Source: Thiotrichaceae bacterium (lineage in GTDB: Bacteria > Pseudomonadota > Gammaproteobacteria > Beggiatoales > Beggiatoaceae). From it: 64,000 bases of DNA. The DNA lies in the NCBI GenBank assembly GCA_011391085.1, contig JAABRD010000032.1, positions 1 through 64,000 on the forward strand. Reading direction: 5' to 3'. This document shows positions 332 through 47,834 of this stretch, piece after piece. Position 1 is the first letter of the stretch. Every line of letters starts with the position of its first letter. The notes below the pieces were generated by a model that searched no databases, had not been told where the DNA came from, and was given only the letters and a program-made list of their open reading frames with translations. The position numbers and the translations under genes are program-made.

Positions 332-1345
332 ATGGACAACATTTTAGGGGCTATTATTACCGGTGGCTTTACTATACTTTCGATTTTCTTATATCGTTTT
401 CTATATCCGCCACATCAAGGGCACCCACCTCCTTTACCCACGGATCCACTTCCTCCACCTACGAGTCATTCTACTGGAAAGCCACCCCCTACAGAACCGC
501 CCGTGAAGGTGAGAGAACCACCTGCGAAAACGTTTGAGTTTAACGTAGTGAAAATCAATGCTTGTGGAAGAGTCATCAGTAACACTCGCAAACAAGCCAA
601 ATATTTGGTGGAAGAGTTGGGCAATGGCGTGACCTTAGAAATGGTCTCCATTCCAGCGGGCGCGTTTCTAATGGGGTCTCCCAATAACGAAGCAGGTCGG
701 GAGGACCGTGAAGGGCCGCAACATCGAGTGACGTTGCCCACTTTTTGGATGAGTAAGTTCCAGATTACGCAGGCCCAATGGCAGGCGATTATGGGAAATA
801 ATCCGTCGTTCTTTAAAGGTAGTCTGCAATTGCCTGTCGAGAATGTTTCTTGGGACGATGCGAATATTTTCTGTCTGAAACTGTCTGTTAAAACTGGGAA
901 AACCTACCGCTTGCCCAGTGAAGCCGAATGGGAGTATGCTTGTCGCGCAGGGACAACTACGCCGTTTTATTTTGGGGAGACGATTACGCCAGAATTGGTG
1001 AATTATGATGGCAATCACAATTATGCTTCTGGCCCTAAAGGCGTTTACCGTGAAAAAACTACTCCTGTGGGCAGTTTTCCACCCAATGACTTTGGATTGT
1101 TTGACATGCACGGTAATGTGTGGGAATGGTGTGCAGATGTTTGGCATTCAGATTATCATAACGCACCGACGGATGGGAGTGTTTGGGAGACAGATGGAGA
1201 CCATAGCTACCGCCTGCTGCGCGGCGGTTCGTGGCTCTATAGTGCCGTTTGGTGCCGTGCCGCGTCTCGCAGCAAGGGCGCGCCAGATTTCCCCCACCAT
1301 TACATTGGGTTGCGTGTCGTTCTGTGTGCTGTGTGGACTTCGTAA
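332..1345 (+). CDS. DGR target protein: membrane-anchored FGE-sulfatase/C-type-lectin-fold protein
   Basis: A 337-residue protein. Residues about 4-24 form one hydrophobic membrane segment. A proline-rich linker follows to about 70. A formylglycine-generating-enzyme (SUMF1/FGE-sulfatase) fold runs from about 100 (VTLEMVSIPAGAF) to the end, with HGNVWEW and the terminal RGGSW block. The last 42 residues are encoded by the variable repeat. Residues 302-304, 312, 314, 316, 317, 320 and 322-324 differ from the template-encoded residues, which are mostly Asn or Tyr, exactly as in DGR-diversified lectin folds. The frame is open back to 194, but that part lies in a MITE, so the ATG at 332 was chosen; no clear ribosome site was seen. 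Enzyme activity is unlikely, and ligand binding is the usual role of such targets. Which side of the membrane the variable domain occupies is unclear: positive charges follow the helix, which would favour the cytoplasm. Confidence 0.85.
   Translation: MDNILGAIITGGFTILSIFLYRFLYPPHQGHPPPLPTDPLPPPTSHSTGKPPPTEPPVKVREPPAKTFEFNVVKINACGRVISNTRKQAKYLVEELGNGVTLEMVSIPAGAFLMGSPNNEAGREDREGPQHRVTLPTFWMSKFQITQAQWQAIMGNNPSFFKGSLQLPVENVSWDDANIFCLKLSVKTGKTYRLPSEAEWEYACRAGTTTPFYFGETITPELVNYDGNHNYASGPKGVYREKTTPVGSFPPNDFGLFDMHGNVWEWCADVWHSDYHNAPTDGSVWETDGDHSYRLLRGGSWLYSAVWCRAASRSKGAPDFPHHYIGLRVVLCAVWTS
1210..1335 (+). repeat. DGR variable repeat (VR)
   Basis: These 126 bp align without gaps to the template repeat at 3356-3481 (offset 2146) with 14 mismatches. 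Thirteen fall where the template has A (replaced by C four times, T four times, G five times). The remaining one is G to C at 1293. The first 25 and last 31 bases are identical to the template; the last 31 (1305-1335) are the likely initiation-of-mutagenic-homing region. The VR ends ten bases before the end of the target gene. Confidence 0.95.
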
Positions 1346-1800
1346 CCCTTTGGATTATAGACCTCTTGCGCTTTGCCCTTTTACGCTTTACCCTTAGTAG
1401 TAGAACTTGGTATCTATAATATAGGTTTGGTTTTTATACGACGCGAAGCGTCGTGCCGGCGAGAATTTTTAATTACTTCATATTTGTAAGTGTATTTTGT
1501 TTTGTTGTCTCGTTTCCACGCGCCAGCGTGGGAATACCGGTAGTGAGGCAATGTGGGTGTACTGTCTGAACTTTGATTAGAATGATTTTCAGATGGACTA
1601 TGATTCGTCAAGCCTCCTTTCATAGCCCTCATTTAATCATCTCAATCAAAGTTCCAGACCGACGCGAAACCGCACGATATTTCACCCAGATTGCATCACT
1701 ACCGGAATGCCGTGGAACGCGCCTGCGTTGTTGCAGGAATGGGACGCTTGCGCGTCCACACCACGTTCCTACGCTGGCGCGTAGGAACTAGATAAATCTC
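1346..1800. other. Repeat-filled spacer between DGR target and avd
   Basis: No gene is seen. The spacer holds short palindromes (GACGCGAAGCGTC near 1440; CACGCGCCAGCGTG near 1518; a GCGTGGAACG/GTAGGAACG-type set at 1711-1790) and S1 MITE copy 2. Confidence 0.6.
1539..1703. mobile_element. S1 MITE copy 2
   Basis: A 165-bp element in inverted orientation relative to copy 1. Ends are GGTAGTGAGGCAATGTGGGT and ATTGCATCACTACC. Flanks GGAATACC (1531-1538) and GGAATGCC (1704-1711) match at 7 of 8 positions, a slightly decayed target duplication. The site is inside an older palindromic repeat. Confidence 0.85.
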
Positions 1801-2163
1801 ATGAAAAAAGACTCCAAAGAGTTACCCATTATCCAAAAAACTTATGACCTCGTCAAATGGTACGTGCCCATTCTCAATCGCCTACCACGCGACCACCGGT
1901 TCCTGTTGGGGGACCGAATCATTACCCAACTCTATGAAACTCTGGAAGCCTTAATCAAGGCCCGCTATGCCAGGGAGAAACTGATGCCCTTGGAAGCTAT
2001 CAATGCCAGATTAGACCTGTTGCGTTACCAATCGCGGTTATTGTATGATTTTGGCTTAATCAGTGTGGACCGCTACGAATACATCGCCAAAGGAATCAAT
2101 GCCATTGGCACCGATTTAGGTGGTTGGATTAAACAACAACAGGTAGTGATGCAATCTGGGTGA
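1801..2163 (+). CDS. avd: DGR accessory variability determinant (Avd), four-helix bundle
   Basis: A 120-residue, helix-rich basic protein with the family signature [14 protein letters not shown] at about residues 28-41. Avd proteins form a barrel-like pentamer of four-helix bundles that binds the DGR reverse transcriptase and template RNA and is needed for mutagenic cDNA synthesis. It lies between the target gene and the reverse transcriptase, on the same strand. The last residues (VVMQSG) are encoded by an inserted MITE. Without that insertion the frame would continue to TGA at 2281-2283, overlapping the reverse transcriptase ATG. The truncated tail is outside the conserved helices, so the protein is probably still functional (inference). 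Confidence 0.88.
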
Positions 2164-2256
2164 TATTCATGAAGTTGCCCTCACCCCCGGCCCCTCTCCC
2201 AGAGGGAGAGGGGCCGGGGGTGAGGGTAAACATATCACCCACATTGCCTCACTACC
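2142..2256. mobile_element. S1 MITE copy 3, inserted between avd and the reverse transcriptase
   Basis: A 115-bp short form with the S1 ends and an interior formed by the CCCTCACCCCCGG palindrome instead of the usual one. It is flanked by a perfect 8-bp duplication CAACAACA (2134-2141 and 2257-2264). Element plus one duplication is 123 bp, or 41 codons, so reading frames across it are kept. Confidence 0.93.
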
Positions 2257-2279
2257 CAACAACAAAGGTCAACCTCAAC

Positions 2280-3338
2280 ATGAAACGCTACGGGAATCTC
2301 TGGCCCCAAGTCACCGCTTTTGCCAATCTCTTGGCCGCCGCCAAACAAGCCCAACGAGGGAAACGTTTTCGGGACAATGTGTTACAATTTAACGCGGACT
2401 TGGAAATTGAAATTTTGCGCTTACAAACCGAATTACAGACGAAAACGTATGTGCCTGGCCAATACAGAACCTTTGAAATTGTAGAACCCAAACGTCGCCT
2501 CATTTCAGCCGCACCGTATCGCGATAGAGTGGTACATCACGCGGTTTGCAATGTCATTGTGCCACGCTTAGAACGCAGTTTTATTGCCGATTCCTATGCC
2601 AATCGGCAAGGCTTTGGCACTCACCGCGCATTGCGTCGTTTTACCCAGTTTGCCCGTTCCTCCCGCTATATCTTACAATGCGATATACAAAAATATTTTC
2701 CCAGTATTGACCATGAAATTTTAAAATCGTTGCTTCGTCAGAAACTCAAATGTGCGGACACACTGTGGCTATTGGAGACTATCATTGACCATAGCAATCC
2801 TCAAGAACCATCGATAAAATATTTTCCTGGCGACGACTTATTGACGCCATTACAACGGCGTCGCGGCCTTCCCATAGGCAACCTGACCAGCCAATTTTTT
2901 GCCAATCTGTATCTCAACGGCTTTGACCATTTCGTGCAAGAACACTTGAAAATCTCCAAATATGTCCGCTATGTGGACGATTTTGCCTTGTTCAGCAACA
3001 ATCATGGTGTCCTCAAACAAGCCCGGATAGCCATTGAAGACCATTTAAACACCTTGCGGCTAAAAATTCATCCCGTCAAAAGCCAACAGTTTGAAACCAA
3101 ACGGGGCGCCAGTTTTTTAGGGTTTCGCGTGTTGCCTCAACAAATTCGAGTACGTACTGAAAATCTCCGGCGGGCCCGCCGCCGCTTACGAGATTTGCAA
3201 CAAGATTATGCCACAGGTAAACTTAAAGTGAAAGAGATTTCCCACTCTATTCGCAGTTGGGTTGCCCATTTGGAACATGGGGATACTTGGCAATTGCGAG
3301 AAAAAATTTTCCATAATTTGATATTTATGAGAAAATAA
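2280..3338 (+). CDS. DGR reverse transcriptase
   Basis: A 352-residue group-II-intron-like reverse transcriptase. The catalytic YVDD is at 231-234. The motif-4 block [10 protein letters not shown] (196-205) has the GxxxSQ form typical of DGR enzymes. A C-terminal thumb follows with the [11 protein letters not shown] segment. There is no maturase or endonuclease domain, as in DGRs. It copies the template RNA with A-to-N errors and, with Avd, directs replacement of the VR. The ATG at 2280 was chosen because the frame upstream to GTG 2160 lies in a MITE. That longer frame is open and would add 40 residues; its GTG overlaps the present avd stop (GTGA). The template repeat begins 18 bases after the stop. 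Confidence 0.93.
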
Positions 3339-3355
3339 ACCTGGGGTAGGCACCT

Positions 3356-3481
3356 CCGCCTGCTGCGCGGCGGTTCGTGGAACAATAATGCCGTTTGGTG
3401 CCGTGCCGCGTATCGCAACAAGAACACGCCAGATTACCGCAACAATAACATTGGGTTGCGTGTCGTTCTGTGTGCTGTGTG
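3356..3481 (+). ncRNA. DGR template repeat (TR)
   Basis: The invariant donor copy of the VR, placed just downstream of the reverse transcriptase. Its 24 adenines are confined to 3381-3450. The first 25 bases and the last 31 contain none, so they cannot be mutated. Adenines sit in AAC, AAT and TAT/TAC codons (Asn, Tyr), the pattern that gives widest amino-acid variation after A-to-N change. It is not itself in a plausible gene. It would be part of a transcribed template RNA continuing to a hairpin at 3584-3638. Confidence 0.93.
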
Positions 3482-3583
3482 TACTCTTCACTGCCAGAAT
3501 GGGTTAATGGGAATTAGCCAAGCGTGTATGAAGAAGAGTCCAGACTTACTCCAGTGATGGAGGTACCATCCAAATATAAACCC

Positions 3584-3638
3584 AGGTCAAGTGGTTTAGT
3601 CGGTGTTCACACCAAACCATCACTTGACCTATTTTTTT
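3584..3638 (+). terminator. Rho-independent terminator of the DGR operon / template RNA
   Basis: A 10-bp perfect stem AGGTCAAGTG (3584-3593) / CACTTGACCT (3621-3630), with an inner GGTTT/AAACC pairing, is followed by a T7 run. It is well placed to end the target-avd-RT-TR transcript about 100 bases after the TR. Confidence 0.75.
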
Positions 3639-3752
3639 AGGTAGTCATACCTTGTGTTTAACATCACATCGTTTATGGTTTTTCGTTTCCACGCAGAAGT
3701 AGGTAGGTTGGCTGGTTCGATAGATTAGGCCGAGTCAGGTTTAGGTGTTGCA

Positions 3753-4028
3753 TATAGTAATATTCCTTCTCATTTATACCCCCCCCAGCCCCCCCGTACA
3801 CGGGGGGGAGTGCCCCCGTACACGGGGGGGAATGCCCCCCCCCGTACACGGGGGGGAATGCCCCCGTACACGGGGGGGAGTGCCCCCGTACACGGGGGGG
3901 AGTGCCCCCGTACACGGGGGGGAGTGCCCCCGTACACGGGGGGAGTGCCCCCGTACACGGGGGAGAGTGACTCCCCCCGCGTGCGGGGGGGCTGGGGGGG
4001 GGTACAAATGAGAAGGAATATTACTATA
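3753..4028. mobile_element. S2 element with a GTACACGGGGG tandem interior
   Basis: Long inverted ends begin TATAGTAATATTC and continue into TTCTCATTT. Between them are eight units of about 20 bp containing CCCCCGTACACGGGGG, each itself palindromic, plus a degenerate GCGTGC unit. Frames on both strands are open through it (Pro/Gly-rich), but they are artefacts. The ends would fit an IS630/Tc1-like MITE with a TA target (inference). The bases 3639-3752 hold a decayed repeat also found inverted at 14484-14551. Confidence 0.7.
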
Positions 4029-4082: not shown

Positions 4083-4832
4083 ATGCTAATCATCCCCGCT
4101 ATCGATTTAAAAGACGGTCACTGTGTTCGCCTCCGACAAGGTCGAATGGAAGACGATACCGTGTTTTCCAACGACCCCGTCGCTATGGCAGAACGCTGGA
4201 TAACCGCAGGGGCGCGACGGCTCCATATTGTGGACCTCAATGGCGCCTTTGCCGGCAAACCTGTCAATGCCCAAATCATTCAAAATATCGTCAAAACCTT
4301 TCCTCATATTCCCATTCAAGTCGGCGGTGGTATTCGTGACGAAGAAACCATTCAAGCCTATTTAGACTTGGGAGTGACTTATCTCATTTTAGGCACCAAA
4401 GCCGTCACAGCCCCGCCCTTTGTGTCAATGGTCTGTGCCAAATTCCCAGGCCACATCATTGTTGGTTTAGACGCCCGCAATGGCAAAGTGGCTACCGAAG
4501 GATGGTCACATATCTCCTCACTCAATGTCATCGACCTTGCCCAACAATTTGCCCAAGCGGGAGTGGAAGCGATTATCTTTACAGATATTCACCGCGATGG
4601 TATGATGCAAGGACTCAACGTCGAGTCCACCGTCCAATTAGCCCGCGCCATCCCCATTCCTGTGATAGCCGCCGGAGGAGTGACCACGATAGAAGACATC
4701 AAAGCCCTCTGTCAAGTCGCCCACGAAGGTATTTTAGGGGCCATTACGGGACGGGCAATTTATGAAGGGACGTTGGATTTTAGACAAGCACAACAACTTG
4801 CAGATAATTGCACTTCGCATATACCGGACTAG
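4083..4832 (+). CDS. hisA: HisA, phosphoribosylformimino-AICAR-phosphate isomerase
   Basis: A 249-residue TIM-barrel protein catalysing the Amadori isomerisation of ProFAR to PRFAR, the fourth step of histidine biosynthesis. IPAIDLKDG at the N terminus carries the catalytic Asp8. The phosphate-binding loops VGGGIRD and AAGGVTT are present, with a second acidic residue in VGLDARNG. Length is normal. It is followed after 41 bases by hisF. The spacer holds half of a TTAGCCGG repeat (4829-4846). Confidence 0.96.
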
Positions 4833-4873
4833 AGGCTTTAGCCGGTTCATTGAATTAGAGAGAAAATATCCAC

Positions 4874-5647
4874 ATGGGACTTGCAAAACGAATCATTCCT
4901 TGCCTTGACGTGGACGCTGGTCGAGTCGTCAAAGGCGTTAATTTTGTCAATATCCGCGACGCGGGCGACCCTGTTGAAATTGCCCGCCGTTATGATGAAC
5001 AAGGGGCGGATGAACTGACTTTTTTAGACATCACTGCCAGTTCCGATGCCCGTGACACGATGGTTCATGTCGTCGAAGCCGTAGCAGGAGAAGTGTTCAT
5101 CCCCTTGACCGTAGGTGGCGGCATTCGTAAAATGGAAGACATTCGCCGCATGTTAAATGCCGGCGCCGATAAAGTGTCGATCAACACTGCCGCCGTGTTT
5201 AACCCCGAATTTGTCCAAGAAGCCAGTCAACACTTCGGTTCTCAATGTATTGTCGTCGCCATTGATGCCAAACAAGTCAGCCTCGCGGGGGAACCGTTAC
5301 GCTGGGAAGTGTTCACCCACGGCGGCCGTAAACCGACTGGGATAGATGCCATCGATTGGGCTAAACGAATGGTGGACTATGGGGCCGGTGAACTGTTAGT
5401 CACCAGTATGGACCGCGATGGCACTCGGCAAGGTTTTGATTTGCCCTTAACGCGCACCATCAGTGAAGCCGTCAACGTCCCCGTAATTGCTTCCGGAGGC
5501 GTCGGAACGTTAGAACACTTAGCAGACGGCGTGTTGGAAGGAAAGGCAGAAGCGGTATTAGCCGCGAGTATCTTCCATTTTGGCGAATTTACCATTCGCC
5601 AAGCCAAACAAGTGATGGCAGATCGTGGTATTGAAGTAAGATGGTGA
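4874..5647 (+). CDS. hisF: HisF, imidazole glycerol phosphate synthase cyclase subunit
   Basis: A 257-residue TIM barrel that uses ammonia from HisH to convert PRFAR into imidazole glycerol phosphate and AICAR. The catalytic aspartates are visible in [14 protein letters not shown] (Asp11) and VAIDAK. The phosphate loops TVGGGIRK and ASGGVGT are present. Order hisA-hisF is typical; hisH is not in the window. Confidence 0.97.
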
Positions 5648-47658: not shown

Positions 47659-47823
47659 GGTAGTGATGCAATCTGGGTGAAATATCGTGCGGTTTCTCGT
47701 TGGTCTTGAACTGTGATTTAGATGATTAAATGAGGGCTATGAAAGGAGGATTGACTAATCAGAGTCCATCTGAAAATCATTCTAATCAGAGTTCAGACAG
47801 TACACCCACATTGCATCACTACC
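47659..47823. mobile_element. S1 MITE copy 8
   Basis: A 165-bp element with S1 ends and a perfect 8-bp duplication CATTTTTC (47651-47658, 47824-47831). It ends only 11 bases before the start codon of the NAD-kinase-like gene and keeps that frame open, producing a false N-terminal extension back to 47730. Confidence 0.93.
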
Positions 47824-47834
47824 CATTTTTCATT

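Follow-up and report, generated by a model that had tools for sequence, protein, structure and literature searches.

A diversity-generating retroelement with one template, five variable regions and a pyrimidine array behind its targets in a Thiomargarita-like large sulfur bacterium

A single reverse transcriptase (RT), a single Avd protein and the RNA of a single template (TR) very probably diversify five genes for presumed sensors in this bacterium, one in cis and four in trans, by the mechanism set out further below. The locus lies in a window of 64,000 nucleotides (the whole stretch of DNA that was analysed), in which the target gene (332-1345), avd (1801-2163), the RT gene (2280-3338) and the TR (3356-3481) follow one another on the plus strand, and it is a complete and genuine diversity-generating retroelement (DGR), a system of an already known kind. 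A complete DGR on one strand had been claimed in the initial annotation, and all of the families were recovered: FGE-sulfatase in the target, DivGenRetAVD in avd (NF033474, E 1.8e-38, above the cut-off; also PF22296), and RVT_1 (1.2e-21) in the 352 aa RT, which carries YVDD and GNLTSQ. The target (variable protein) comprises 337 aa from the ATG at position 332 and runs from an N-terminal hydrophobic segment through a Pro-rich linker to an FGE-sulfatase/C-type-lectin-fold domain, with the variable region (VR; 1210-1335, plus strand) at the C-terminus of that domain; the match to PF03781 (E 1e-60) spans residues 103-330, and the C-type-lectin fold is predicted from this family match. At its 3' boundary (IMH side) the VR reads GGACT (1335-1339), the counterpart in the TR being GTACT (3481-3485). 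The identical segment at the 3' ends of TR and VR, previously given as 31 bp, measured 34 bp.

The closest RT (96% identical) was found in the sister Thiomargarita sp. isolate SulCav_PC08 (locus L044 of the same-genus genome G001), in which the protein encoded at L044:6308-7324 shares 85% aa identity with the local target. When the RT was placed in a tree, as had been proposed as a check, it fell among DGR RTs, in a lineage made up of RTs from filamentous cyanobacteria and from large sulfur bacteria (support 100/99), and models of group II introns and of the St85 retron scored far below their cut-offs. Cyanobacterial RTs were about 70% identical overall (those of close relatives on cyanobacterial plasmids about 69%), and phage RTs were distant, at below 40% identity among the matches listed. 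The position of the TR behind the RT had been pointed out as differing from the Bordetella phage layout, which it does, but it is not unusual: a TR just behind the RT is the rule across this RT lineage, with target-avd-RT-TR as the normal order, which makes the layout ordinary. A cassette group called 'TR downstream of RT' had already been listed in PMC3521204. Judged by its affinity to cyanobacterial RTs, the RT may belong to the lineage of the Clade 5 (5E, cyanobacterial) DGRs of Roux 2021 and Dore 2024 (PMC8144416, PMC10907252), which likewise have CLec/FGE targets, kinase and VMAP/MoxR/vWA conflict-system targets, trans targets and MITE-degraded copies. The present element differs from those DGRs in its host, a large sulfur bacterium resembling Thiomargarita, in the five targets served by one TR, in the RNA domain and pyrimidine array described here, and in a stop-capable TR codon that has yielded a stop. 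The cyanobacterial DGRs of PMC7517822 (2020), with RTs about 70% identical, are alike in their Ser/Thr kinase and remote variable proteins; they belong to a different phylum, and the accessible part of that paper makes no mention of the cis-elements found here. With Bordetella phage BPP-1 and other phage DGRs (PMC3240598) the local element shares RT, Avd, adenine-specific TR/VR differences, an IMH-type boundary and a G/C hairpin after the VR, and it differs from them in the TR that follows the RT and in the presence of the pyrimidine array.

TR and VR could be aligned without gaps over 126 bp, with 14 differences, 13 of which are located at TR adenines (24 available) and lead to C (4), T (4) or G (5) (hypergeometric P = 1.9e-10); the lone non-adenine change is G84C, and the adenine events alter eleven residues of the target. 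These counts reproduce those reported initially. A TR search of the organism's own assembly (5.77 Mb, 99.9% complete) returned, besides the local VR (contig C67), four VRs in trans, two on contig C47 and one each on C44 and C50, and remote VRs had indeed been foreseen. All of their differences are at adenines (8/8, 13/13, 14/14 and 16/16), and 64 of the 65 differences from the TR pooled over the five VRs are of this kind. The genome has a single intact RT, a single avd and a single copy of the TR-RNA for these five VRs.

The proteins that carry the VRs are of several types. C47a (1151 aa) and C47b (735 aa) are Ser/Thr-kinase proteins with a Pkinase domain and an FGE domain. The C44 target (829 aa) is located downstream of VMAP-C and AAA/MoxR-type genes, a neighbourhood that matches the ternary conflict arrangement of PMC10907252, and its N-terminus, for which there was no Pfam match, appears vWA-like from a reading of the sequence and from the operon. 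The C50 target is a membrane-anchor protein and has, like the local one, an N-terminal hydrophobic segment and a proline-rich linker. Two side observations were made at these loci. The C44 target and its VMAP/MoxR genes lie amid small gene pairs which, on reading, resemble PIN-type toxin-antitoxin modules (L009, 1-5000 and 7900-11000), and a decayed RT (L013, G000:C47:13125-13844; 65% identical, 5 stops) is present near the first C47 target, the kinase target beside it having a VR that now matches the C67 TR.

Diversification in the recent past is recorded by two comparisons. The 3' ends of C47a and C47b go back to a recent duplication and show 7 differences in the VR, all at TR adenines, versus 1 in the next 220 bp. 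Between the own and the sister TR there are three differences outside adenines (positions 46, 94 and 100), at which the own TR base is present in 5/5 own VRs and the sister TR base in 4/4 sister VRs; since the N-termini show the local target to have an ortholog in the sister, and C44 and s_C274 to be orthologs of each other, the changed template has been copied into the VRs in each lineage. In one sister VR (L161, G001:C274), three T to G changes were seen in the constant 3' part (102, 114 and 121), none at TR adenines, which could be due to decay, sequencing error or another process. The codon AAG at 3420-3422 is the sole TR codon that an A-to-N change can convert to a stop, and it is kept in the sister TR; at this position the C50 VR has TAG, although its reading frame is otherwise uninterrupted up to the common end. 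Judged from the sequence, this TAG is a nonsense codon made by the element, and the knockout may be transient, open to overwriting in the next round. Among the 86 VRs of the lineage there was no other adenine-made stop. Targeted codons have been described as avoiding stop-capable changes (PMC10907252), and for the BPP-1 RT a rate of about 1% has been given for stops arising from AAG (PMC12875486); the C50 TAG is a natural case of a lysine-codon TR able to knock out one of its own sensors.

Several insertions surround and interrupt the locus. A palindromic insertion of 115 bp (2142-2256), with an 8-bp target duplication CAACAACA, lies between avd and the RT gene; it has a predicted RNA fold of -96 kcal/mol and supplies the last avd codons, by which the Avd tail is changed from QQQRSTST to QQQVVMQSG. 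In the sister (L044) the site is empty and avd runs into the RT gene, the stop codon of the one and the start codon of the other sharing the sequence ATGA, a comparison from which this overlap is taken to be ancestral and to have been broken by the palindrome in the present genome. With the translational overlap lost and a very strong hairpin between the genes, RT expression may be low. The mechanically called GTG start of the RT at 2160 was rejected in favour of the true start, ATG 2280, the longer frame being an artefact of the insertion. A MITE-like element, member of a dispersed family with dozens of copies, is found upstream of the target (121-289, or 123-287 by narrower limits), with a second, inverted copy between target and avd (1538-1704, or 1539-1703) that is absent at the sister locus and a further copy within the window at 47659-47825; 40 candidates of this family were scored among 537 in the genome, most of them full length, and diverged copies occur in the sister species. 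A 22-bp repeat array (CCCCCGTACACGGGGGGGAGTG; 3779-4001), enclosed in a 43-bp inverted repeat, separates the DGR from two histidine-biosynthesis-like genes (4083-5647).

Two other accounts of these VRs were considered. The likeness of the five VRs might have been made by ordinary gene conversion between FGE paralogs and not by retrohoming in trans; the FGE domains and 3' flanks common to the targets, and the 97.6% identity of C47a and C47b across VR plus flank, would be in line with it. Conversion, however, spreads adenine changes and does not create them, and nearly all of the differences are at TR adenines; moreover, the FGE domain of C50 is only ~45% identical to the others, yet its VR and about 60 bp of flank are 88-90% identical. 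Gene conversion is thus regarded as highly improbable, and retrohoming in trans is the reading kept here. The other account concerns the present state: palindrome and MITE may have shut the DGR off, leaving a recently silenced relic whose VRs record past activity only. The absence of the insertion from the sister species, where the ATGA overlap persists, the strength of the hairpin between avd and RT, the stop in one target (C50) and the decay already undergone by the second DGR copy of the genome (C47:13125) would all fit a relic, and are countered by the intact RT and Avd frames, by the retention of the RT start and the AAAGG upstream of it, by non-adenine decay in the VRs that is nearly nil (1/65), and by the diversification of the C47 pair following its recent duplication. 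On balance we consider silencing rather unlikely, while giving it some weight. The initial annotation had concluded that the element has been active on this gene, which is borne out for the recent past by retemplating after duplication and after species divergence; as to the present day, the palindromic insertion now parts avd and RT.

Behind the TR, its 3' end and the spacer form a structured RNA domain (3463-3646, plus strand; single genomic copy, E 4e-35) that shows covariation. In an alignment of roughly 165 nt behind the TR from 36 lineage members, 96.3% of the consensus cells were paired and double changes were present in 28 of 41 pairs, a level reached by none of 500 shuffles; double-change cells numbered 217 versus 54 +/- 9 in shuffles, and all slid versions dropped to 33-48% paired. 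The covariance model produced 36 matches in held-out loci with E 2.4e-21 or better (L045 and L170 being the same locus) and four distant matches (1e-5 to 2e-7), and in the held-out set, with the alignment fitted to the model, covariation is seen at 35 of the 41 pairs, P1 contributing six of its eight. Helix P1 is formed by TR ACUCUUC (3483-3489) and spacer GAAGAGU (3533-3539), P2 is a 9-bp hairpin (3500-3508 with 3513-3521), P3 is also part of the consensus, and a terminal hairpin of 13 bp (about 3584-3630) is followed by a T run. No match to the RNA domain was found in Rfam, and miRNA-like Rfam matches at the locus were discarded as spurious, falling on palindromes.

The end of P1 coincides with the point where VR and TR part, and at boundary position -1 a G is present in 52/63 VRs across the lineage versus 0/63 TR rows; from this geometry, P1 may set the start of cDNA synthesis. 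The spacer showed no preference for VR DNA by complementarity, the longest exact match averaging 6.8 nt for VRs versus 7.1 nt for TRs. Spacer AGUCC does match VR GGACT, and the spacer did not pair consistently with the pyrimidine array. The DGRs of L164-L167 (RTs 45-50% identical) share a conserved TR spacer of another kind, TATCCATGA..GAATTTCC..GCAAAATA, which may represent a second RNA class.

The stop codon of the target is immediately followed by a pyrimidine array (1346-1395, plus strand), of the type CCCTTT..GCCCTTTT.. on the coding strand, which is common to all five targets of the genome and to the RT lineage. The pyrimidine content of the best 50-nt window was 0.79 for 86 targets versus 0.55 for 382 control ORF ends from the same contigs (MWU P 4e-41), and 0.50 after TRs; 13 of the 86 VRs were below 0.70 in this 50-nt measure, mostly as a result of a shorter array. 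The C positions follow a period of 7.5 nt (power 0.89 versus 0.28 +/- 0.02 in shuffles, 0/300; 49 non-redundant arrays). The array was also found in bacterial DGRs with RTs 45-50% identical, which are without the RNA domain, and it was absent after seven phage or prophage-type targets, where a hairpin is present instead. A short G/C hairpin, ACGACGC-GAA-GCGTCGT (1438-1454, plus strand), lies downstream of the local array and is conserved in the sister (L044); hairpins were counted at 49/86 target 3' ends versus 74/382 controls. With its 7-bp stem, GAA loop and distance of about 100 nt from the VR (4-34 in phage DGRs), it differs from the BPP-1-type target site, which has a 7-10 bp stem and a 4-nt GRNA loop 4-34 bp after the VR. 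Both the RNA domain and the array, each of them lineage-wide, seem to be without description in the accessible literature, and for the array no description was found in titles and abstracts.

A role of the array in target recognition is suggested by its association with DGR targets, which is correlative, and the array may be passed on along with duplicated targets instead of being kept by selection. That it is a general 3' feature of FGE genes was rejected in part: most classical GFRVVR-type FGE genes are without it and the array-bearing ones look VR-like, and in genomes without this RT the array is carried by an FGE subset with clustered, VR-like differences. The array could instead be a Rho utilisation (rut) site that ends transcription of the target gene. 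Sites of that type are C-rich and G-poor with regularly spaced YC, and the array resembles them in composition and in its period of roughly 7.5 nt. Most carriers, however, are cyanobacteria, which are not known to have Rho, and neither the 382 other ORF ends nor most classical FGE genes have the array, so a rut site appears improbable. A better case can be made for a passive hitch-hiker, part of a 3' module copied whenever the VR-bearing C-terminus duplicates onto a new gene, given that VR plus array travel as a unit in this genome and that arrays remain in a genome without a detected DGR (G004). Against this, the 49 non-redundant arrays keep composition and period while their sequences diverge freely, which argues for constraint; passive copying is accordingly thought the less probable explanation, though one to be taken seriously, and a part in target recognition is preferred.

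Arrays were also observed apart from intact elements. L022 (G000:C120) and L023 (G000:C75) are FGE paralogs unrelated to this TR that end in GFRLARM*, followed by array and hairpin, with mutual differences at clustered, VR-like positions; from their sequences they look as if they were orphan targets of a second, missing DGR. In a related genus, several FGE genes that vary in a VR-like manner and carry arrays were found (L225, L226 and L227 in G004; L224 in G028:C20). No avd was found in G004; the congeneric G028 retains an avd together with a DGR RT broken by a frameshift, so that the array-bearing VR-like FGE genes look like orphaned targets.

In the mechanism proposed for the five genes, the TR transcript would end in the conserved folded domain, in which P1, formed by the TR 3' end and the spacer GAAGAGU, would put the cDNA start at the TR/VR boundary, beside an unpaired CCA. 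The RT would misread TR adenines, and the cDNA would replace the VR of any gene in which constant flanks and a GGACT boundary accompany the VR and a pyrimidine array follows downstream, the hairpin being optional. The C-type-lectin-fold domain of each target would serve as an input sensor, coupled to a kinase, to a vWA/MoxR/VMAP conflict operon or to the membrane. More tentatively, and with slightly less than even confidence, we propose that the DGRs of this lineage pick their targets, unlinked ones included, by a strand-specific array of ~7.5-nt period in place of the phage cruciform, and start cDNA from the covarying 3' domain of the TR RNA, so that a gene gaining VR flank and array would be recruited as a new hypermutated sensor. 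The experimentally characterised DGRs all have their parts in cis (PMC10907252), and the target site that has been dissected is that of a phage. One TR, five different sensor proteins and a common array offer a concrete and cheap test of how cellular DGRs reach distant targets. The RNA domain provides a search model without need of an RT or target nearby, and by means of orphan arrays genomes can be searched for former or remote DGR targets.
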